Positions 8,818 to 23,834 of a DNA stretch of 47,653 nucleotides are shown here, piece after piece. This stretch comes from an uncultured Chlorobiaceae bacterium (GTDB taxonomy: Bacteria; Bacteroidota; Chlorobiia; Chlorobiales; Chlorobiaceae). The stretch is from NCBI GenBank assembly GCA_903824295.1, contig CAIJWE010000006.1:1-47653 (forward strand), given 5' to 3'. The notes beneath the pieces were generated by a model that ran no database searches, was not told where the DNA came from, and saw nothing but the letters and a program-made list of their open reading frames with translations. A program made the position numbers and the translations under genes. Every line of letters starts with the position of its first letter. The stretch's first letter is position 1.

Positions 8818-10599
8818 TCATTTCCCCGTCGCTATCCTCAAAACCACACTGAAAACCGAGCCGTGGTTGATGCGCGAGCGTACCTTGACGTCGCCTTTAT
8901 GGGCCAGAATGATGTGCTTGACAATGGCAAGCCCAAGGCCGGTTCCTCCTCGCTCGCGTGAACGGGCCTTGTCGACACGGTAGAATCGCTCAAAGATGCG
9001 GTCAAGATCTGATTTTGATATGCCGATACCGTTATCTTCCACCTCCAGCCGTAGAGTATCTCCACTTCTGAACGCTGAAATCCTGACTTTCCCGTGGCGC
9101 TCCTCAACGTATTTGATGGCGTTGTCGAGAAGGTTGCGGATAACAATGTCGAGATAGCAGGGATCGGCATGAACAGGGGGAAGTTCTTCGGGAATATTGA
9201 TTTCAAGCTTGACCTGCTTTTTTTCAACAGCGTGTTTCAGCATTTCAACCGATTTTTGTACCATACTTTTGAGGTCAACCGGACTGAATTGATATTTAAT
9301 GTAGCCTGACTCAATTCTCGACAGGTCGAGCACGTCATTGACGAGAGCGGTCAGTTGCTGGCTGGCCTGAAGGATAATCTGCAGGAAGTGTGTGGCATGT
9401 TCAGGCTCAAGCATGGCTCCGTCGAGCAGGGTCTCGGCGTATCCGGTGATGACGGTGAGCGGCGTGCGCAGTTCATGTGAAACGCTGGAGACAAAATCCC
9501 TCCGTATTGCTTCAAGGTTGCGAAGTTTGGTAATGTCGTTCAAAACAAAAACGGTTCCTTCGAACTGCTCCTCTTTGGTGAGTGGCATGGAGCTGATTTG
9601 CATGATGCGCTCTCCCTTTTTGGTTATGAGTGCCATCTCCTCTTTGCGCAGGGCGATGCGCGTGCAGTGTACTTTCGCAAACAGCTCCTGCAGCTTGCTG
9701 TCGGAGAGATGGTGGAGCGGGCGCGACTTGAACATGGTCCCGTCGATGCGGAACATTCTTGATGCTGCCGGGTTGACCAGAATGATGTCGCCAGCCGCAT
9801 CGGTGACGATGATAGCCTCACGAATAGCTGAAAAAACCGTTTGGAGCCACTCTTCGCTGCGCTGCAATTGCCTGATTTCATCCGTCATGACGTTCAGTGT
9901 GCGGGCAAAGAGACCTGTTTCATCCTTGCTGACGACAGGGATGGTGCCTGAATAGTCTCCATGAATCCTTTTTTTTGCGCTTTTGGCAAGTACCCTGAAC
10001 GGACGGGTCAGAAAAAAAGCTGCCAGAAAACCGGCGATCAGGGAGAAGAAGAATGCCAGAAAAATGCACTGCGTGATCTCTCTCTGAATTCCGCTGTTGA
10101 ACACTCCGATGTCGTAGAGTGGTTTGCCGAATCGAAGGACGGCGAAGGGTTTCGGCAAACCGACCGGGATGGCCATATAGAGCATGCGCTCTTTGACCGT
10201 TTGACTGTACCGGGTTCTTTCGCCGTACCCCTTTGCAATGGCCTCCTGTACTTCAGGCCTGTTCCAGTGGTTCTCTATTGCATATAGCTTACCGGGGGGG
10301 ATCGAGGAGTCGGCGATGACCTCTCCATGAAGATCAATCAGTGTAACCCGGATGTCGAGCGCACGTGCGATACGCTCGACCCATGCGTTGCTTTGCTCGT
10401 TTGGCTGCCATTCCCGCGCCTCCTCTTCGAACATCTGTTTGTTGAACAGAAGATCGCGGTGAAGCTCCTTTTTAGTGGCCGAGACCAGTATCTCCGTCAA
10501 TCGAGCCTCAATCGAAAAATAGCTGATGACTGTGGAAAAAAAAATAATGATCCCGATGACAAGACCAAGCTTGACGGAGAGTTTAGGCGGCATGGTCAT
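8818..10599 (-). CDS. phoR: Phosphate-regulon sensor histidine kinase PhoR
   Basis: The sensor kinase for phosphate limitation, partner of the upstream PhoB. From the ATG at 10599 it has about 593 residues: a first membrane helix (LGLVIGIIIFFSTVISYF), a periplasmic sensor segment, a second helix (CIFLAFFFSLIAGFLAAFFL), a HAMP linker, a PAS domain (EEWLQTVFSAIREAIIVTD), HisKA (FVSSVSHELRTPLTVITGYAETLLDGA, strongly PhoR-like) and HATPase_c (NLLDNAIKY, GTGLGLAIVKHI). The reading frame is open to 10629, but ATG codons at 10599 and 10593 behind a GAGGA-containing stretch are better starts. It overlaps the end of phoB, implying translational coupling. In the family, PhoR senses through the Pst transporter and PhoU; a phoU gene lies at 22055, but no pst genes are in this window. 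Confidence 0.9.
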   Translation of the reverse strand: MTMPPKLSVKLGLVIGIIIFFSTVISYFSIEARLTEILVSATKKELHRDLLFNKQMFEEEAREWQPNEQSNAWVERIARALDIRVTLIDLHGEVIADSSIPPGKLYAIENHWNRPEVQEAIAKGYGERTRYSQTVKERMLYMAIPVGLPKPFAVLRFGKPLYDIGVFNSGIQREITQCIFLAFFFSLIAGFLAAFFLTRPFRVLAKSAKKRIHGDYSGTIPVVSKDETGLFARTLNVMTDEIRQLQRSEEWLQTVFSAIREAIIVTDAAGDIILVNPAASRMFRIDGTMFKSRPLHHLSDSKLQELFAKVHCTRIALRKEEMALITKKGERIMQISSMPLTKEEQFEGTVFVLNDITKLRNLEAIRRDFVSSVSHELRTPLTVITGYAETLLDGAMLEPEHATHFLQIILQASQQLTALVNDVLDLSRIESGYIKYQFSPVDLKSMVQKSVEMLKHAVEKKQVKLEINIPEELPPVHADPCYLDIVIRNLLDNAIKYVEERHGKVRISAFRSGDTLRLEVEDNGIGISKSDLDRIFERFYRVDKARSRERGGTGLGLAIVKHIILAHKGDVKVRSRINHGSVFSVVLRIATGK

Positions 10600-11293
10600 C
10601 ACTCTCTTTTTCCTCAAATTTGTAACCAAGTCCGCGAACGGTTGTGATCATGCGACCAGTTTCTCCAAGTTTTTCGCGGATTCTGGTAATGTGTGTGTCG
10701 ATGGTTCTGGTGTTGATGCTTTTATCGATATCCCAGACATCGCTGAGCAGCCTCTCGCGTGACTGAGCCTCACCCTTCCTTTTGAGGAGAGCGACGAGAA
10801 GCTTGAACTCCATCAGGGTCACCACAAGCTCTTTGCCTTCAAGCGTCACAAGGTGGCGAGTCAGATCGACTTCAAGAGCGCCTGCCTTGAGCAGTTCCTC
10901 CGTTTTTCCGCTTTGCCGGTGATCGCGCTTGAGTATTGCCCGTATGCGCAGTGTCAGCTCACGGGGGCTGAAGGGTTTGACCACATAGTCATCAATGCCG
11001 AGCTCAAATCCCAAAATCCGGTCTATCTCCTCTCCTTTGGCCGTCACCATGATGATGGGGATATCTTTGTAACGCTGATGCTGCCTTATTTTTCGGCAGA
11101 GTTCAAAGCCGTCCATTCCTGGCAGCATCACATCAAGCAGCACAAGGTCAACGCTTTTTTTTGAGAGCTGCTCAAATCCATCTTCGCCGGTGCCGGAAAG
11201 ATGACATCTATAGCCTGCCCGATTGAGATTATATTCGAGCAGCTTTGCAAGGTTCTGGTCATCTTCGACAACAAGAATCTGTGGATTCGGCAT
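10583..11293 (-). CDS. phoB: Phosphate-regulon response regulator PhoB
   Basis: An OmpR-family transcription factor of about 236 residues from the ATG at 11293. The receiver domain has acidic residues VVEDD (8-12), phospho-Asp54 (LVLLDVMLPGMDGF) and Lys106 (VVKPFSP). The winged helix has the PhoB-like LTLMEFKLL-type segment, RERLLSDVW and RTIDTHITRIREKLG, and ends GLGYKF. A TTG at 11302 extends the frame by three residues. The start lies about 10 bp after the arsA stop and the end overlaps phoR, giving an arsA-phoB-phoR string. It probably activates phosphate-acquisition genes, for which the two alkaline phosphatases here are natural candidates. I did not find a convincing double Pho box upstream of them. 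Confidence 0.92.
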   Translation of the reverse strand: MPNPQILVVEDDQNLAKLLEYNLNRAGYRCHLSGTGEDGFEQLSKKSVDLVLLDVMLPGMDGFELCRKIRQHQRYKDIPIIMVTAKGEEIDRILGFELGIDDYVVKPFSPRELTLRIRAILKRDHRQSGKTEELLKAGALEVDLTRHLVTLEGKELVVTLMEFKLLVALLKRKGEAQSRERLLSDVWDIDKSINTRTIDTHITRIREKLGETGRMITTVRGLGYKFEEKESDDHAA

Positions 11294-11305
11294 GGTATTC
11301 AATTT

Positions 11306-13637: not shown

Positions 13638-15083
13638 CTATTTTACCGGTGGCTTCAGTCGGGCGAGCTGCATGATTTTTTTTGCGATATCGGTATTGTC
13701 GTAATAGCCCATGAATGCCTCAGCCCCACGCCCTATGGCAAAAACCTGAACGGGCAGTGCCGTATGGGCGTTGCTGCTCCAGCCAATTGCGGCTCGGTTG
13801 TTCAACAGGGTGGTTATGGCCGGGCTGAAGGTATCATTGCTCTTTATTCCGGGAGCCTCGCTGTTCATGGTCGCCTGGTAAGCTCGCTGCAGCGCGTTGC
13901 GATCTCCGGCATCAACAGTCCCACGTCCGAAATAGACCTTGGCACTATCGAGCGCCATCGGGAAGGTGACGGTGCCGCGTTTTTTCCATCTGTTTACCTT
14001 TTCAGCAAACCGTTGCTGCGAAATTTTTTGATGGCGCAGAAGGTCAAAGCGGGTTTCATAACCATTTGCTGCGTTGCCAAGTGAAAGTCCGCCGCACTCG
14101 TGATCGGCGGTAACGACGATAAGTGTCTCTCTTGGGTGACGGTGGTAAAAGGCAAGGGCCTCCTCTATGGCTTTGTCGAATGATTCAACGTCGTGCGCTG
14201 CCGCAGCAGCATCGTTTGCGTGGCAGGCCCAGTCGATCTTTCCCCCTTCAACCATCATGAAAAAGCCTTTTGGATTGTTGAGAAGGCGGATTCCCTCGCG
14301 GGTAAATTCTGCAAGTGATGTTTCGCTCTCATGGCGATCCATGGCAAAGCTCAGCGCCCCCTTGCTGTCATAATCGCTGTAAGCCCAGCATCGCGTTCCC
14401 GGCTTTATGGCCGCCAGTTCTTTGCTGTTGCGGGCAAGCAGATAGTGGGCCGATTGCATGAGATTGATAATATCTCCCTTGAAAACTTTGGTTTTTGCCT
14501 GGTTTTCAGGAAAATTTCCATGGCTGTATCCTCCACCAAAGTAGTCGAAACCGCTTGAGGCCATCTGCGTGGCAATGTCGTACAGGTTGGCACGAGAGGG
14601 GTTGTGGGCATAAAAACAGGCGGGGGTTGCATCATCAATTCCAACACTTGAAACAATCCCGGTTCTCATCCCTTTTGCCTTTGCCATTTCAGCAATGGTT
14701 TTGAGTGTGTCGAGGTGGTTCCCTGCCATCGAAATAGTACCGATAGTGGTTTTATAGCCGGTAGCAAGTGCCGTGCTTGCGGCTCCTGAGTCGGTGATAA
14801 GATGGTCTGCCGCATGGGTGGTTGCCATACCGAGCACAGGAAATGAGGTCATGGCGAGGGTGCGGCCGTTCTCAAGCAGGGTGCTGGATAGTTTCACCTG
14901 CGCCGGCCCCATGCCATCTCCTATAAAAAGAAACAGGTAGCGAGGAAGAGAGGTGCGTACCTTTGCAGCGGCCTGCAGAGCCGGGTTTGCGGGGCAAAAA
15001 GCTGAAGCCGATACCATGATGGTCAGCAGCAGTGCCATGTTCATCGACCTGAAGAAAGACTCTTTTTGACGATATACCCTCAT
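13638..15083 (-). CDS. phoA: Alkaline phosphatase (PhoA type)
   Basis: A 481-residue secreted phosphomonoesterase that releases phosphate from organic esters. The N-terminus has a signal peptide (NMALLLTIMVSASAF, residues about 15-29). Catalytic and metal motifs appear in the normal order: LFIGDGMG (metal Asp), ITDSGAASTALATGYKT (nucleophile Ser in DSG), DDATPACFYAH, FFMMVEGGKIDWACHAND (Glu, Asp and His ligands), VVTADHECGG (Asp-His) and SNAHTALPV (His). Length and order are typical. A GGAGAA sequence lies just upstream of the ATG. The gene sits alone upstream of arsD on the same strand, and PhoB control is likely from family knowledge. It is a useful reference for the permuted homologue at 32761-34218. 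Confidence 0.93.
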   Translation of the reverse strand: MRVYRQKESFFRSMNMALLLTIMVSASAFCPANPALQAAAKVRTSLPRYLFLFIGDGMGPAQVKLSSTLLENGRTLAMTSFPVLGMATTHAADHLITDSGAASTALATGYKTTIGTISMAGNHLDTLKTIAEMAKAKGMRTGIVSSVGIDDATPACFYAHNPSRANLYDIATQMASSGFDYFGGGYSHGNFPENQAKTKVFKGDIINLMQSAHYLLARNSKELAAIKPGTRCWAYSDYDSKGALSFAMDRHESETSLAEFTREGIRLLNNPKGFFMMVEGGKIDWACHANDAAAAAHDVESFDKAIEEALAFYHRHPRETLIVVTADHECGGLSLGNAANGYETRFDLLRHQKISQQRFAEKVNRWKKRGTVTFPMALDSAKVYFGRGTVDAGDRNALQRAYQATMNSEAPGIKSNDTFSPAITTLLNNRAAIGWSSNAHTALPVQVFAIGRGAEAFMGYYDNTDIAKKIMQLARLKPPVK

Positions 15084-15247: not shown

Positions 15248-15988
15248 TTATTCACAGTGCGAGCGAAGTTCCTCCCAGAGGTTGCGGTAGGCTTTTGAGG
15301 CAGGCGCGTTGGGCAGTACGGCATTGAGCGGTGCGCGGTAGATGCCCATTTTTTCAACCTCGGAATTGTACGGAATAGTCTGGCTGAGAAACTCCGGGCC
15401 AGCACCAAACTCAAGGATGGTGTCGCGGTGTAATTTTTTCTGTTTCTCCACCATACTGAAGAATGGACGGATTTTTGAGCCGTCGAGTTTATTGGCTTTG
15501 AAAAAATCCTGTAACTGGATGTAGGTGCGAATCGAGAGCGTTGTGGGAATCAAAGGTACCAGAATCAGGTCGGAGGCAGCAAACACACTTTCAGAAAGAA
15601 GTGTCAGGTTTGGCGGGCAGTCAAAAAAGAGATAGCGGTACTCCTCGCTGAGCTCTTCAAGGTTTCTTTTAAGCTTTTTGTGCGGCTTTTTCTCCTCAGA
15701 GAGCTCGATATCAAGATTTCGGTAGGAAAAGTCTGAAGGGAGCAGGTCAAGGTTCTCAAAATCGGTTGCCTTGATGTTGCGGTAGATTTTTTTGTTGCCC
15801 TTCAAAAATTGGTCGCTGTTATATTTTTTAGAGGCGGTAATTCTGAAATAGTAGGAGCTTGCTCCCTGCGGATCAAGATCGCAGATCAGTGTCGGTTGAG
15901 CTGTCAGGGAGGAGAGGTAGGAGAGGTTGACCGCCGCAGCCGTTTTGCCAACCCCGCCCTTGATGCTGTAGAGTGCTATGGTTTTCAT
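15248..15988 (-). CDS. ParA/MinD-type ATPase coupled to a CHAD protein
   Basis: A 246-residue deviant-Walker ATPase. The KGGVGKT motif lies at residues 10-16 with the signature Lys10, Walker A' is [12 protein letters not shown], and Walker B is [12 protein letters not shown]. The C-terminal region ([17 protein letters not shown]) is typical of Soj/ParA proteins. There is no ParB gene, no visible parS site and no plasmid signature, so it is an orphan. The start ATG overlaps the stop of the CHAD gene (ATGA, 15985-15988), implying coupled translation. ParA-family ATPases position chromosomes and plasmids but also cargos such as carboxysomes. Here the neighbour suggests polyphosphate granules as cargo, which is inference only. 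Confidence 0.88.
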
Positions 15989-17556
15989 CTCAGTTTACTG
16001 GTCAGCAGATCGTGAAAGAGTTGAGCGGTTTTTTCATGGTCAAACGCCTCAAAGGTTTTGTGGAATCGACCCCTCGCCTCTTCCTGTTTGTGAAAAAGGG
16101 TAGCCATAAGTCCACCCATTGATGCGGCAAGCAGGATCTCATCTTTGCCGGGGGGCAGTGCTGCCAGACGTTCACGAAGAAAGTGCAGTTGAACCGAAAA
16201 ATCGACAAAGTCTCCGAGGTTGTCCTGGAGCTCCTTCAATTGGCGTACCGCGGGAGTGACCGATTTATGAGGGAAAATCGAGGAGAAGAATTCAAGCAGA
16301 TAGCGCAGTTTTTTACAGTCAATCCGCAGTGCATGGATTTCGCTGTCGGTTGTTTCTTTGCTGACCTGACGGCCGTGGCGGATAACTTTTTTCCATGCCT
16401 TTTTAATACTCTCTACAGCCACATTTTCGGTTGAGAGGGAGGCGTTTGGACAGTACGTTGCATCAGGCACTGATTGCCGGTATACAAAGCTCTCCCATTG
16501 GTCAAGAAAGGATTGGCAGAGGTCAGAAGCAAGATAGCGGCAGAACTGCCTGTGCAGTTTCTTGCGGGATGCGGCAATGTCGGTGAAAAAGAGCTTGAGC
16601 GATGGCTGGAGACTGGGGGGCAGAGAATGGAAATAGCTTGCCTGGCGCAGAAGAGAGACATCCCTGTCGCGCAATTCGTTGGTTCGTTTACCAAGCTCCC
16701 TGAAGAGATTGAGAAAATATGCGCTCTCTTCGGGCTCAAAAACGCCCTTGAGCTGCTTCAGAATGGAGCGGGTGCGGCGTATGGCAACACGGTAGTCGTG
16801 CAGAAATTCGGAATCAAGGTTTTTCTTGATTCCCTCTTCATTGGCGCGTATGACGGAGAGGGTAAATTGAAGCAACAGACGGGCACTGTGATAAACTGGT
16901 GCATCAGCATCAAGATCGAGGCTTATTTTTGCAGAGTAGTCGTGCACGCTGACGCTAGCCTCATTCATGATCAGCAGAAAAAGCTCACTGAAATCAAGAG
17001 CTTTCGCAATTTCGTTGTTGTTTGTCAATGAGGTTACCATCAGCTCCATCTCATCGTCATATCCCCTGAGCGGCGAGAGTGAAAAGATACTCTGGAAAGG
17101 TTCCGGCTTTTCGCTGTCGGCAAGGTAGAACGATTCGGAGGTCAGAAAGGCAACACTTTTCTCGTTATCATCAAGAACGCGGTATGTGGTAATAACGGTA
17201 TCAATAGAGCTGAGCCTGATGAATGCCCTGATATCCGTTAGAGTTGAGAGCGCCGCTTTCAGGATGCCGGACGGAAGTGCGTCGGCAAAAAAAGAGGAGG
17301 GAGTTGCGGGGAAGGGGAGAGAGGCTGTTTCCTGGCCGCTTTTGAGATCGACAAGAAAAAGGGTTCTCCTTTTTTTTACAATTGCAACCCCTTTTTCAAA
17401 AGCCTGCCACTCGAAGGTGTCGTAGAACTCCCGCCGCTCTTTGCTTGATGTATGAGCTTTGAGCTGCCATCCGGAGGGAAGTATGTTTCCCGGCAGCAAT
17501 TCAGTGGAGTCGGCTTGATTCAACCTGAAGTATACCGTTTTCGGAGTGGTGTGCAT
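15985..17556 (-). CDS. CYTH-like/CHAD domain protein
   Basis: A 523-residue protein. The C-terminal part (about residues 225-515) is a CHAD domain with both histidine/arginine signatures, [18 protein letters not shown] (about 258) and [18 protein letters not shown] (about 408). These conserved basic helices bind polyphosphate in characterised CHAD proteins. The N-terminal 200 residues look like a degenerate CYTH/triphosphate tunnel domain: [21 protein letters not shown] and [12 protein letters not shown] resemble its strands, but the classic ExExK is not evident. CHAD proteins localise to polyphosphate granules in other bacteria. The polyphosphate kinase lies about 1.6 kb away on the opposite strand, and the coupled downstream gene is a ParA ATPase. 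Confidence 0.9.
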
Positions 17557-17655: not shown

Positions 17656-17687
17656 AAAAAGGCCACTCTTTCGGGAATGGCCTTTTT
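17656..17687 (-). terminator. Rho-independent terminator after the minus-strand LRR-like gene
   Basis: A stem of AAAAAGGCCA (17656-17665) and TGGCCTTTTT (17678-17687) with a 12-nt loop. It lies just past the stop of the LRR-like gene at 17694. Read on the minus strand it ends in a T run; the symmetric A/T flanks would let it act in either direction. Confidence 0.8.
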
Positions 17688-17693
17688 ACTCTC

Positions 17694-18905
17694 TCATTCA
17701 TACGACTTCATGGTATCGGCGATGGTTATCTCGCTGTAAAGGGTGTTGTTCGATCGAATATAGTTTCCTTTTATCGAGCATGTTGCCCGAGCCTCGTCTT
17801 CATCAAATATCCCAGCATTTCCCCCGCAAATAAAATCTCCGCCAACTTTTTTGAGCGTTCCATCAAGAGTTGTCAGTTGGTTCGCAGAACAATCGAAATT
17901 TCCTTTGACTTTTTTAGGTACCCCATCAAGAGTTGTCAACTGGTTGCCGGAACAATTAAAAGAGCCCTTGACCTTTTTTGGTGCACCTTTGAGCGTTGTC
18001 AACCGGTTTGCCGAACAGGAGAAATTTCCGCTTACTTTATGGGGTGCACCCTGGAGCGTTGTCAACTGATTGTTGGAACAATCAAAATGACGAACCTCGT
18101 GAGGCGTTCCTGCAAGTGAGGTGAGCAGGTTTCCTGAGCAATTAAAATCCCCTCCAACCTCTTTGGGAGCACCCTTGAGTGATTCCAGCCTATGGTTTGA
18201 ACAGTCGAAGTTTCCGTAAACAACAACCGGCCCGCCTTTCAGAGAGGTCAGTTGGTTCCCGGTGCAAAAAAAGTCACCAATAATAAAATTTGGGCAGCCT
18301 GCCAGTGAGTTCAGTTGATTGCCGGAACAGTCGAAATCGCCGTGAACCTCATCAGGACTCCCTTCGAGTGAGGTCAACTGATTGTGGGAACAGTCAAAAT
18401 CACCAACTTCACGGGGAGCGGCCTCAAGTGAGGTAAGCAGGTTATCCGAACAGGAAAAATCTCCGCCAACTTTATGAGGAGCACCATTGAGTGAAGTCAG
18501 CAGGTTATCTGAACAGGAAAAATCGCCACCAACTTTTTTCAGATTACCCTGAAGTGTTGTCAACCGGTTGGAGGAACAATCAAAATTCCCGGTCACCTTT
18601 TTTAGAGCACCTTCGAGTGAGAGTAATTGATTGTGAGAACAGTCGAAATCGCCGTGAACCTCATCAGGGCAGGCTTCAAGCGAAGTCAACAGGTTATTTG
18701 AACAGGAAAAATCCCCGGTAACGGTGTGAGGGCCCCCATCGAGTGTTGTCAACTGATTTCCTGAACAGTTGAAATTACCTGCCACGATTCCCGGGCATCC
18801 CTCAAGAGAGGTGAGCCCCAGGTTTGAGCAATCGATGTCGCCTTTTCCATCAAGAAGAGGGCCTAAAACATCGGCGAAAAGTCGTATTGTTGCTTTTGTA
18901 CTCAT
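17694..18905 (-). CDS. Cysteine-containing LRR-like repeat protein, paralogue 1
   Basis: About 403 residues from the ATG at 18905, preceded at good spacing by GGAGAT; the frame is open to 19004 but without a ribosome site there. After a short leader (MSTKATIRLFADVLG) come about 17 units of a 21-residue repeat, consensus G-D-F-x-C-S-x-N-x-L-T-x-L-x-G-x-P-x-x-V-x. This is an LRR-like solenoid pattern with a Cys at the same place in each unit. No signal peptide or membrane helix is seen, so it is probably cytoplasmic. A C-terminal cap (FICGGN...ATCSIKGNYI) is shared with the paralogue at 22782. Function is unknown; proteins with such repeats are found in bacteria and phages. It is divergent from ppk and downstream of nothing obvious. 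Confidence 0.85.
   Translation of the reverse strand: MSTKATIRLFADVLGPLLDGKGDIDCSNLGLTSLEGCPGIVAGNFNCSGNQLTTLDGGPHTVTGDFSCSNNLLTSLEACPDEVHGDFDCSHNQLLSLEGALKKVTGNFDCSSNRLTTLQGNLKKVGGDFSCSDNLLTSLNGAPHKVGGDFSCSDNLLTSLEAAPREVGDFDCSHNQLTSLEGSPDEVHGDFDCSGNQLNSLAGCPNFIIGDFFCTGNQLTSLKGGPVVVYGNFDCSNHRLESLKGAPKEVGGDFNCSGNLLTSLAGTPHEVRHFDCSNNQLTTLQGAPHKVSGNFSCSANRLTTLKGAPKKVKGSFNCSGNQLTTLDGVPKKVKGNFDCSANQLTTLDGTLKKVGGDFICGGNAGIFDEDEARATCSIKGNYIRSNNTLYSEITIADTMKSYE
17830..18870 (-). repeat. 63-bp tandem repeats encoding Cys-LRR-like units
   Basis: About 17 degenerate 63-bp units, each coding one 21-residue G-D-F-x-C-S-x-N-x-L repeat. Adjacent units are near-identical in places, for example the two GDFSCSDNLLTSL copies at about 18430-18530. 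This suggests expansion by duplication. One or two units are one residue short, lacking a residue between V and F/H. Confidence 0.85.
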
Positions 18906-19191
18906 CGTTCTATCTCCAAAAATAAATGATCGACATGAAAAATCCGGATCAGCAGATCTCCGTTTTGAACGATCTTCTGCTAACAAGGGATAAAGATTGC
19001 CCAATATACTTTTCCAAAAAGGAGCTCTAACTTTTCAGCGACCTCCCCGGCAATTGTTTTCGTATTCGTAACACAAACCCATTGGTTCGTGACGCCAAAG
19101 CCTCTACATTATTGTCATTCAATGTTCATTGTTCCCCATTTTTATGGCATTGTTTTTATGCAGCAAGAAAAAACCAGGATCAAATTTTTTT

Positions 19192-21312
19192 ATGCCTCTC
19201 ACGCAGATATGGAATGAGGATGATGGCAAGGTAGTTGCGCTTCCGGATTTTTTTGATACCTCATTATACCTTAACAGGGAGTTGAGCTGGATTGCGTTCA
19301 ATCAGCGCGTGCTTGAAGAGGCGCTTGCCGGTGAAGCGCACCCGCTTTTGGAACGAGTGAAATTCATCTCGATTTTCAGTTCAAACCTTGATGAATATTT
19401 CATGATCCGGGTTGCCGGTATTGAGGATCAGTATGAGGCAGGTATTTTGGAGCGAACGATTGATGGCCATACCCCTTTTGAGCAGCTCGAAAAAATCCGG
19501 ACGATGGTCTTGCAGCAGCTCAGCCAGAGAAACAAGTGCTTTTATCAAGACCTGGTGCCGGCACTTCAGCAGGAGGGTATTGAGTTTCTTCGGTTTTCAG
19601 AATTATCGGTTACGAAGCAAAAAGCATTGAGCCACTATTTTCGCAAGGAGATTTATCCCGTCTTGACCCCTTTGGCCTTCGATACGGGCCATCCCTTTCC
19701 CTTTATGTCGAACCTTTCGTTGAATCTCGCCATAGAAGTTGACGACGATGAAAGCACGACGCTGAAGTTTGCCCGTGTCAAAGTCCCAAGTGTTCTTCCA
19801 CGGCTTCTTCGGCTTAATGAAATCAGGGGCTTTGATGATGATGGGATTATTCGATTTATCTGGCTTGAGGATCTTATTGAAAACAATCTTGAACAGTTGT
19901 TTCCAAAAATGAGGGTTACCAAGGCCTATCTTTTCAGATTGATTCGCGACGCAGATGTTGAAATTGAGGAGGATGAAGCGGGAGATTTGCTGAAAACCAT
20001 CGAAAAGGGAATCCGCTCACGCCGTTACGGAAAGGTTGTTCGCCTTGACATTACTCCGGCAATGCCGGTGCAGGTGAGAAAGCTTTTGATGAAAAATCTT
20101 GGAGTTGCCGCAAGAAACGTCTATGAAATAGATGGTGCTCTCGGACTTGGCTCTCTCATGGAGCTTCTGAAAATTGAACGCCCGGATTTGAAGGATGAGC
20201 CCTTTGTGCCAAAGAACCCTATCGAGGAGCAGTTCAGTAACGATATCTTCAGCGCCATAAAAGCCAAAGATCAGTTACTCTACCATCCTTATGACTCCTT
20301 TCAGCCAGTCGTTGATTTTATCAATCAGGCAGCTCTTGATCCTGACGTGCTCTCGATAAAGCAGACACTCTACCGGGTTGGCAGTAACTCGCCGATTGTC
20401 AAGGCGTTGATGAAGGCTGCTGAAGCGGGTAAGCAGGTGGCTGTTCTCGTGGAACTCAAAGCGAGGTTTGACGAAGGAAACAACATTATCTGGGCGCGGG
20501 CACTTGAAGATGTCGGAGCACATGTCGCCTACGGTCTTCCTGGGCTGAAAACCCATGCCAAGCTTACCCTGATTGTACGACGTGAGCAAAATAAGCTTAA
20601 GCGCTACCTCCATCTTGGTACTGGTAACTATAACCCGGCAACCGGGAAAATCTATACCGATTACAGTCTCTTTACCATCAACGAGCAACTTGCCAACGAT
20701 GTGGCAGAGCTCTTTAACGCCTTGACGGGATATTCAAAACATACCGGATACAGAAAGCTGCTTGTCTCGCCGATCAATACCCGAAAAAGGATTATTGAGA
20801 TGATTGAACGGGAGGTCGAGTGGAGCCGGAATGAGAATAAAGGAAAGATAATCATGAAAATGAATGCCCTGGTGGATGCAAAAACCATTCGGGCACTTTA
20901 CAAGGCCTCGTGCGAAGGGGTAAAGATCGACCTTATCATTCGGGGAATCTGCTGCCTCAAGCCCGGTATAAAGGGGGTTAGTGAAAATATCAGGGTTATC
21001 AGTGTTATCGGACGTTTTCTTGAGCACAGCCGGGCCTATTACTTCCATAACGGAGGAAAGGAGGAGCTCTATCTCGGAAGTGCTGATATCATGCCACGAA
21101 ACCTTGACGATCGGGTTGAAACCCTTTTTCCGGTGTTTGATAAAGCGCTCATTCGTGTTGTCAAAGCGGATCTTGATCTGATTATGAGCGATAATGTCAA
21201 AGTATGGGAGATGCATCCCGACGCAACATACACGAAAATCAGCAATGATGGCCCGCAAGTGAACAGTCAGGCACTTTTTTTAACCCGTTCAGCCCAGAAA
21301 AAAATGTCATAA
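19192..21312 (+). CDS. ppk: Polyphosphate kinase Ppk1
   Basis: Makes polyphosphate from ATP, reversibly. From the ATG at 19192 it has about 706 residues, the usual Ppk1 length. [19 protein letters not shown] starts the N domain. [19 protein letters not shown] and [22 protein letters not shown] lead to the two PLD-like catalytic motifs: [10 protein letters not shown] with [22 protein letters not shown], and [14 protein letters not shown], which hold the phospho-accepting and second histidines. [17 protein letters not shown] is strongly conserved. In-frame TTG (19129) and ATG (19144) codons lie upstream without ribosome sites; an AGGA precedes 19192 at a rather long distance. It is followed by arginine decarboxylase and phoU on the same strand. 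Confidence 0.95.
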
Positions 21313-22054: not shown

Positions 22055-22711
22055 ATGTCAGAACGGCCCGTTCATGCGCAAATAACAGAACTTTCTGAAG
22101 TTCTTGTTCAACTTTCCAATAAAGTGGTGGAGAATTTTTTGCTTTCACTGCATGCGGTTGTACAGCATGATGAACATGGTACTGTGCAGAGAAAGTTTGC
22201 TGATTATGAGATTGATATGGAAGAGGCTGATCTCGAAAAACGATGCCTCTCTTTTCTCGCCCTTCAGCATCCGGTTGCAAGTGACCTGCGCACCATAATG
22301 GCCATTATCATGATCGATGATGAGCTGGAGCGTATTGGCGACCTCTCTCTTCATAGTCTTGATCTTATGCTTGAAATCACTCCCGGGATCATCGAATCCT
22401 TTGAGTTCGAAAAAATGGGTGTGCTTGCTGCCGAAATGGTTAAAAAGTCGATTGCAGCCTTTGCTGTAAAAGAGCAAGTTCTTGCTGATCAGGTCTCTGA
22501 TCTTGACAAAGAAATTGAGGTAATGCATCGTTCAGTCGTTAACAAGGCAACAGCTTTGATAAAAATGCAGGATGCTGATGTGAGTCAGCTTATGGCGATC
22601 TTGAGTATCTCCCGCTATATTGAGCATATTGCCGACCATGCTGTAAAGATTGCACAGGAGGTCATTTATCTCGTGACAGGTGAAATCATGCACAAAGATG
22701 CATCACATTAA
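22055..22711 (+). CDS. phoU: PhoU phosphate-signalling regulator
   Basis: A 218-residue all-helical protein with two PhoU repeats. The metal-binding E/DxxxD motifs appear in each half: IDMEEADLEKRCLSFLALQHPVASDLRTI and DDELERIGDLSLHSLD in the first, DKEIEVMHRSV with ILSISRYIEHIADHAVKIAQEVIYLVTG in the second. PhoU represses PhoR when phosphate is ample and limits Pst uptake. In bacteria it is normally the last gene of a pst operon, whereas here it follows ppk and pdaD and no pst genes are in view. It starts 38 bp after pdaD without a clear ribosome site. Confidence 0.93.
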   Translation: MSERPVHAQITELSEVLVQLSNKVVENFLLSLHAVVQHDEHGTVQRKFADYEIDMEEADLEKRCLSFLALQHPVASDLRTIMAIIMIDDELERIGDLSLHSLDLMLEITPGIIESFEFEKMGVLAAEMVKKSIAAFAVKEQVLADQVSDLDKEIEVMHRSVVNKATALIKMQDADVSQLMAILSISRYIEHIADHAVKIAQEVIYLVTGEIMHKDASH

Positions 22712-22781: not shown

Positions 22782-23834
22782 ATGAGTAAAAAAGTGACGT
22801 TCGTCGATGTCATGGGGGAGCTTGATGGAAAAAGTGACATTGATTGTTCCAATAAGGGATTAACCTCGCTTGAAGGGTGTCCGGAGAGGGTGAAGGGAGA
22901 TTTCAACTGCTCAGGCAACAAGCTCACCACACTTGAGGGCTGCCCAAAAAAAATTAAAGGAGATTTTAACTGCTCAGGGAACGAGTTGACCTCACTCGAA
23001 GGTGCTCCTGAGGAGGTTAAAGGTGACTTTGATTGTTCCGGCAATCAACTGCCCTCTCTTTTGGGTTGTCCAGCATTCATTATGGGAGATTTTTCTTGTG
23101 CAGGAAATCAGTTGACCGTGTTCAAAGGCGAGGTTCTTACAAATACGGACACCCTTCTCGCGGGCGGCCTGGAGATAGTAGAAGGAGATTTCAACTGTTC
23201 AGGTAACAAGCTCACCTCACTTGAGGGGGCTCCTTTGATAGTGGGCGGTGATTATAACTGTTCAGATAATCAGCTTACAACACTCCAGGGTGCGCCAATA
23301 AAGGTGCAGGGTGATTTTGATTGTTCCCGCAACCAACTTGCTTCACTGGCAGGCAGCCCAGATGTTGTCAGGGGAGATTTTTCTTGCAGTGGAAACCAGT
23401 TAACCTCGCTTAAAGGAGTCTCTCGTGAAGTGCGCGGATCCTTCGATTGTTCAGCAAATCAGTTGACTTCTCTCAAAGGTGCTCCTGAAGAAGTCGGGGT
23501 ATTTGATTGTTCCGGCAATCAACTGTCATCCCTTAAAGGTGCTCCTCAAAAAGTTGACGGGCTTAATTGTTCAAATAATCAATTGATTTCACTCAAGTGG
23601 GCCCCTGAAAAGGTCAAGGGCAATGTTGACTGTGCATGGAACCAGCTCGCAACACTTGAGGATGCTCCCAAAAAGGTCAAGGGTAATTTTGATTGTTCAG
23701 GAAACCAGTTGACAGCATTTGAGGGTTCTTTGAAGAAAGTTGGAGGAGACTGTATTTGCACAGAGAACTCCCAACCCTTTCATGAAGAACAAGTTAGGAT
23801 GGTTTGTAATATCAAAGGCAACTGTTTTGTATAA
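22782..23834 (+). CDS. Cysteine-containing LRR-like repeat protein, paralogue 2
   Basis: A 350-residue paralogue of the protein at 17694-18905. It has a short leader (MSKKVTFVDVMGELDG, like the other's DVLGPLLDG) and about 15 copies of the 21-residue unit (GDFNCSGNKLTSLEGAP). One unit carries a 14-residue insertion (GEVLTNTDTLLAGG). It ends in the same cap (CICTEN...VCNIKGN). The ATG has ACGGAGAT upstream. It has no signal peptide. It follows phoU on the same strand, so the two paralogues bracket ppk-pdaD-phoU on outward-facing strands. Function is unknown. Regular stacking of one Cys per turn could give a column of thiols. Confidence 0.85.
   Translation: MSKKVTFVDVMGELDGKSDIDCSNKGLTSLEGCPERVKGDFNCSGNKLTTLEGCPKKIKGDFNCSGNELTSLEGAPEEVKGDFDCSGNQLPSLLGCPAFIMGDFSCAGNQLTVFKGEVLTNTDTLLAGGLEIVEGDFNCSGNKLTSLEGAPLIVGGDYNCSDNQLTTLQGAPIKVQGDFDCSRNQLASLAGSPDVVRGDFSCSGNQLTSLKGVSREVRGSFDCSANQLTSLKGAPEEVGVFDCSGNQLSSLKGAPQKVDGLNCSNNQLISLKWAPEKVKGNVDCAWNQLATLEDAPKKVKGNFDCSGNQLTAFEGSLKKVGGDCICTENSQPFHEEQVRMVCNIKGNCFV
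22840..23770 (+). repeat. 63-bp tandem repeats encoding Cys-LRR-like units
   Basis: About 15 degenerate 63-bp units coding the same 21-residue repeat as the minus-strand array at 17830-18870. Two consecutive units near 23490-23580 are shortened by one residue, and one unit near 23120-23180 is expanded. Confidence 0.85.

Follow-up and report, generated by a model that had tools for sequence, protein, structure and literature searches.

Which cellular task is served by a ParA-family ATPase that is encoded next to a CHAD protein instead of next to ParB? This question is raised by a gene pair in a 47,653-nucleotide stretch of DNA from an uncultured Chlorobiaceae bacterium (contig CAIJWE010000006.1 of assembly GCA_903824295.1; hereafter the window), a kinship that the closest matches of the DNA bear out. 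The initial annotation had read the pair as a possible system for spacing polyphosphate (polyP) granules over the nucleoid, with the CHAD protein as an adaptor between the granule and the ATPase.

The CHAD-parA locus

The stop codon of the CHAD gene and the start codon of parA overlap in an ATGA, just as the initial annotation had described (Table 1). Its statement that ppk lies about 1.6 kb away agrees with the position of ppk1, which starts 1.57 kb from the CHAD start. The absence of a ParB gene was borne out as well: neither a ParB gene nor parS is present beside the pair, the CHAD gene being located in ParB's place, and the only ParB_N gene of the genome lies on another contig (C72), where it adjoins the chromosomal soj, away from the CHAD-parA pair. 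A search of the source genome revealed a single CHAD gene. The rest of the pair's neighborhood in the window is phosphate-related (PhoR-like, PhoB-like, alkaline phosphatase, PhoU). Because a hairpin followed by a T-run is found between the CHAD gene and the LRR-like gene (read by eye from the sequence; an automated pattern scan did not flag it), the arrangement suggests that CHAD and parA may form a transcription unit of their own, apart from the LRR-like gene and ppk1. Relatives of this LRR-like gene occur in the order PhoU-LRR-CHAD-PPK1 in other Chlorobiaceae (L078, L079, L081). Possibly, both LRR-like proteins of the window are part of the polyP system. Note also that the source genome has a second ppk1-like gene, which is cut by contig ends (contigs C6, C13, C120).

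Table 1. Positions of the features discussed. Coordinates without a prefix refer to the window, all others to the loci named.
Feature	Position	Strand	Remarks
PhoR-like histidine kinase and PhoB-like response regulator	8818-11302	-	below equivalog cutoffs
Alkaline phosphatase	13638-15083	-	PF00245, 227 bits; next gene downstream of ParA
ParA-family ATPase	15248-15988	-	ORF of 246 aa, ATG start; AAA_31 (Pfam), 111 bits
ATGA stop/start overlap	15985-15988	-	translational coupling signature, read from the sequence
CHAD protein	15985-17556	-	523 aa, ATG start; PF05235, 187 bits, residues 229-461
CHAD domain, family model match	16174-16872	-	contains the invariant polyP-contact residues
Hairpin with T-runs on both sides	17659-17688 (about)	.	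possible bidirectional terminator
LRR-like repeat protein	17694-19004	-	between CHAD and ppk1
ppk1, polyphosphate kinase 1	19129-21312	+	TIGR03705, 867 bits
PhoU, phosphate signalling	22055-22711	+	TIGR02135, 148 bits, above cutoff
Second LRR-like repeat protein	22782-23834	+	near ppk1 and PhoU
Fused CYTH-NUDIX gene, Neomarinimicrobiota	L156:6741-7625		
Adjacent CYTH and NUDIX genes, Paracoccus	L291:5268-6153		
117-aa ORF, spirochaete	L281:8681-9034		directly upstream of parA
321-aa ORF, spirochaete	L282:9402-10367		directly upstream of parA
Short CHAD-model ORFs, Bacteroidota	L084:6006-6491, L085:3616-4089, L087:8102-8599, L088:6798-7262		near chromosomal soj

The two proteins

The ATPase possesses a deviant Walker A motif (KGGVGKT) with the signature lysine (Lys10) and has no N-terminal HTH. 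Residues K10, G11, G12, V13, G14 and K15 are invariant among 23 relatives, and so are D37, D39 and D123; the signature and catalytic lysines and the switch aspartates are thus kept. Its AF2 model (pLDDT 89) can be superimposed on Soj/ParA with Z 31 over 244 residues, on McdA (6non) with Z 27.8 and on BcsQ with Z 25. By these residues and the modelled fold, the protein looks like a competent ParA-type ATPase. When compared with the Arg positions in the C-terminal half of the genome's own Soj, position 183 is kept basic in the family, whereas positions 207 and 210 are not. The initial annotation had named placement in a chromosome-partition clade as an argument against its reading; in our tree, ParA is split from 12 Soj-type sequences with a support of 90/81, a separation that should not be over-read, as the ParA/Soj tree has long branches. 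The family profile gives more than 200 bits for members, versus at most 153 bits for Soj-type proteins. The ParA-family protein of C. tepidum with known structure (PDB 3ea0) was considered as the same protein and ruled out (19% identity). Plasmid records matching ParA are numerous (1587, all with less than 60% identity), and an origin from plasmid partition was rejected: the best full-length matches (Paracoccus, Alphaproteobacteria, 45%) carry a CHAD-ParA-CYTH-NUDIX set and no ParB.

The CHAD protein consists of a degenerate TTM fold (about residues 1-205) followed by the CHAD domain (about 207-520). Residues 207-520 align with the CHAD protein of Chlorobium tepidum (CtCHAD; Q8KE09; PDB 3e0s, 6qv7, 6qva) with an E value of about 1e-105 and about 52% identity over the CHAD domain, and the AF2 model (pLDDT 90) has Z 37 to CtCHAD. 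The structure of CtCHAD was solved with polyP, and H253, R256, R260, R296 and K441 matter there (PMC6537752). All five of these polyP contacts are kept in the protein studied here (same numbering) and are invariant in 25 relatives. Other CHAD proteins sit on polyP granules (Tumlirsch and Jendrossek 2017, cited in PMC6537752). The CtCHAD work, in the part considered here, covers the CHAD domain only and discusses neither a TTM-like N-terminal domain nor a ParA partner.

The N-terminal half of the model resembles several TTM enzymes with Z of about 13 over about 175 residues, and the whole protein matches YgiF of E. coli (5a60) with Z 18.9. YgiF has the same domain order, TTM then CHAD, and is an active triphosphatase. 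In the first TTM strand of the protein studied here the ExExK motif was not found; VYFRL stands at residues 8-12, in columns without an acidic consensus. As this strand lacks ExExK, triphosphatase activity of the N-terminal domain is unlikely. ParA/MinD partners usually contact the ATPase via a basic N-terminus (PMC12204374). A basic tail was looked for at both ends of the CHAD proteins and was not found: over their N-terminal 20 residues, 27 CHAD proteins have a net charge of -0.33 and 1.93 K+R, versus 0.24 and 2.83 in the background. Therefore, a direct action of CHAD as the adaptor is something that we infer.

Conservation of the pair and of its polyphosphate-related neighbors

Within Chlorobiaceae, 30 of the 31 genomes possess an ortholog of ParA (71 to 93% identity in the loci listed) and likewise a CHAD gene, both being absent from the same single genome (G063). 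Joint loss of ppk1 in this genome was ruled out, as ppk1 is retained. CHAD is located directly upstream of parA in 27 of the 30 genomes having ParA; in the other three, both genes are still present, with CHAD on a different contig. The CHAD genes found off the parA locus (in these three genomes, and the second copy in G010) are part of a complete or partial PhoU-LRR-CHAD-PPK1 arrangement, i.e., a CHAD that has left parA adjoins ppk1. Since the gene neighborhoods around the pair differ (several variants in Chlorobiaceae), conservation concerns the pair itself and no larger block of genes.

Whether the pair is conserved beyond this strain, a point on which the initial annotation had made its reading depend, can be answered clearly: with the family defined by the ParA profile and loci fetched twice dropped, 109 of the 132 distinct loci, spread over six phyla, have a CHAD gene immediately upstream on the same strand. 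Before repeated loci were dropped, this arrangement was counted in Chlorobiaceae (55/63 loci), Gammaproteobacteria (25/30, and in addition one stand-alone CHAD that Pfam confirmed), Chloroflexota (7/8), Spirochaetota (2/8), Neomarinimicrobiota (1/1) and one distant Bacteroidota genome, as well as at all 15 loci from the phylum of a Gemmatimonadetes-labelled MAG, a phylum that is taken from the record title (lone MAG records may be misbinned). The stand-alone CHAD, a single pair, has a different architecture. CHAD was found beside none of 22 Soj-type control loci. The 4-nt overlap is exact in 52 of 112 counted CHAD-ParA pairs, across phyla. A genome scan revealed relatives of ParA in records labelled Gemmatimonadetes, Chloroflexi, Neomarinimicrobiota and Spirochaetales, and further ones under the labels Methylococcaceae, Salinisphaera and Flavobacteriales. 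The family is patchily distributed: members occur in 44 of 274 gammaproteobacterial genomes, in 8 of the 251 genomes of the Chloroflexota sample, and in 15/64 and 1/149 genomes of two further samples. The trees of the two proteins are largely congruent: the CHAD tree contains 17 of the 20 strong splits seen for ParA, and outside Chlorobiaceae their distances correlate (0.75), as expected if both genes are inherited together. This conserved adjacency shows a functional linkage of the two proteins, whatever its kind.

That ParA is an orphan chromosome- or plasmid-partition protein standing beside CHAD by chance is highly improbable and largely refuted by this survey: annotation pipelines do label the protein ParA, and weak similarities to plasmid ParA proteins exist, but it belongs to a clade apart from Soj (with the support given above), Soj-ParB of the same genome sits elsewhere, and the CHAD-ParA pair is kept across phyla.

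Where larger flanks were covered, genes similar to ppk1, ppx, sixA, CYTH, NUDIX, pst and phoU turn up repeatedly around the pair (the SixA, PPX and PstS labels come from single-sequence searches, and the Pfam check covered and confirmed representative SixA-like, PPX and CYTH/NUDIX proteins). The order is ppk1-CHAD-parA-CYTH/NUDIX in the Neomarinimicrobiota record and CHAD-parA-CYTH in a spirochaete, and in several Gammaproteobacteria the pair is flanked by ppk1, ppx and sixA. Among the CHAD-linked members, the neighbors that recur are polyP genes, and no conserved gene for another cargo is shared across phyla. As a single fused gene encodes CYTH and NUDIX in the Neomarinimicrobiota operon, and Paracoccus has two adjacent genes for them, their occurrence suggests that CYTH-NUDIX is a third functional part of the CHAD-ParA module.

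Possible functions of the pair

A polyphosphate-linked function of this ParA is very likely, and a dedicated machine for placing polyP granules is plausible. The reading that we favor with moderate confidence is that the pair would be a positioning module of the ParA/MinD type with the polyP granule as its cargo. The CHAD domain would bind polyP and mark the granules, as its C. tepidum ortholog binds polyP in vitro and as other CHAD proteins do; for the protein of the window, conservation points to this. ATP-bound ParA would dimerise and bind the nucleoid non-specifically, in line with its family and fold. The CHAD protein would recruit ParA and promote its release via a folded surface, probably the degenerate TTM domain, which is the obvious candidate for the ParA contact. 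The granules would track ParA gradients and be spaced and shared at division, not fusing. Three observations sit badly with the simplest form of this module: the missing basic tail of CHAD, the Soj Arg positions that are no longer basic in the family, and the family members found in genomes devoid of CHAD. A broader version, which we consider about equally likely to be right or wrong, is that of a widespread and hitherto unrecognised ATP-driven CHAD-ParA system, often with CYTH, NUDIX, SixA or PPK1, that in many phyla would both space polyP granules along the nucleoid and partition them, and in which ParA would be contacted by a folded domain rather than by a basic tail.

The positioning module proposed here would resemble several known systems in part. 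Similar to McdA/McdB, which positions carboxysomes, a ParA-type ATPase (of similar fold) is encoded next to a cargo-linked protein, and the cargo is a body in the cytoplasm that serves storage or metabolism, which here would be polyP. In contrast to McdA of S. elongatus with its SGGQGKT (PMC9178275), ParA has the signature lysine in Walker A, and its partner is built of two folded domains and, unlike the McdAB-type partner, lacks a basic tail at the N-terminus. Because this tail was not found, we do not claim membership in the ParA cargo systems; the CHAD-ParA system would resemble such a system in its working. With Soj/ParA of the chromosomal ParABS system, ParA shares the fold and the deviant Walker A motif; it differs in its separate clade and in having CHAD in the place of ParB. 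In Pseudomonas aeruginosa, the task proposed here for CHAD-ParA, the spacing of polyP granules on the nucleoid, is carried out by AlgP (PMC9239181), a histone H1-like tether and no ATPase. According to a 2025 review, AlgP is the one polyP spacing protein known, no positioning proteins are known for Caulobacter, and the ATP dependence and energy use of polyP positioning are an open question.

The adjacency of ppk, parA and CHAD is already known: a folD-ppk-parA-CHAD cluster with the same gene neighbors is conserved in the genus Acidithiobacillus and was described in 2019 and 2024 (PMC6416229, PMC10892726). Those studies interpreted the cluster in terms of cAMP or copper biology and kept the partition label for parA; a positioning role was not proposed. 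In the open-licence literature we found no earlier publication on a ParA positioning polyP granules, and the main text of a 2023 survey of ParA/MinD cargos makes no mention of polyphosphate or CHAD. If the positioning reading is true, CHAD-ParA would be a candidate ATP-driven machine for placing and sharing polyP granules, and polyP would be an added cargo for the ParA/MinD family. For knock-outs in hosts that can be cultured, such as Chlorobaculum, Acidithiobacillus and Paracoccus, this reading makes a clear prediction.

The main rival to positioning, which we consider rather unlikely, is that ParA is an ATP-driven switch on polyP metabolism, which loads CHAD onto the polymer, releases it or assembles it there, and with it PPK1, PPX or CYTH enzymes, much as BcsQ does for cellulose synthase. 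The neighbors of the pair, mostly polyP enzymes and the CYTH-NUDIX pair, are consistent with such a switch, as are the lack of an adaptor-like basic tail on CHAD, the partial loss of the nucleoid-binding Arg positions of Soj, and the scores of BcsQ-family models on ParA, which are nearly as high as those of partition models. However, the signature lysine that is invariant here is lost in BcsQ (RGGVGTT, PMC9178275), and in fold the protein is nearer to Soj, ParA and McdA (Z 31 to 28) than to BcsQ.

It is less probable still that ParA positions a cargo other than a granule, e.g., another protein, and that CHAD serves as a polyP-dependent regulator or anchor. Members without CHAD and with other neighbors (a spirochaete ORF overlapping parA, a phbB-containing plasmid) fit this explanation, whereas the CHAD-linked members share no other cargo gene across phyla and it is the polyP genes that recur.

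Family members without CHAD

Some genomes that encode a ParA of this family have no CHAD gene at all (Salinisphaera, Flavobacteriales, some Bacteroidota), and CHAD is therefore not the sole partner of this ParA family. In spirochaetes, one CHAD-less parA is directly preceded by a 117-aa ORF that adjoins or overlaps it (L281) and another by a 321-aa ORF (L282). Pfam gave no match for either ORF, and both are candidate alternative adaptors. In several Bacteroidota, the CHAD model also matches short ORFs of 155-166 aa that are located close to the chromosomal soj, a CHAD-ParA neighborhood distinct from the pair discussed above; for those of L084 and L087, the Pfam match covers the C-terminal half of the CHAD model only. 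Finally, plasmid pMAQU02 of Marinobacter nauticus (L293) carries a CHAD-less family ParA a few kb from phbB (PHB synthesis), possibly with another type of granule as its cargo.
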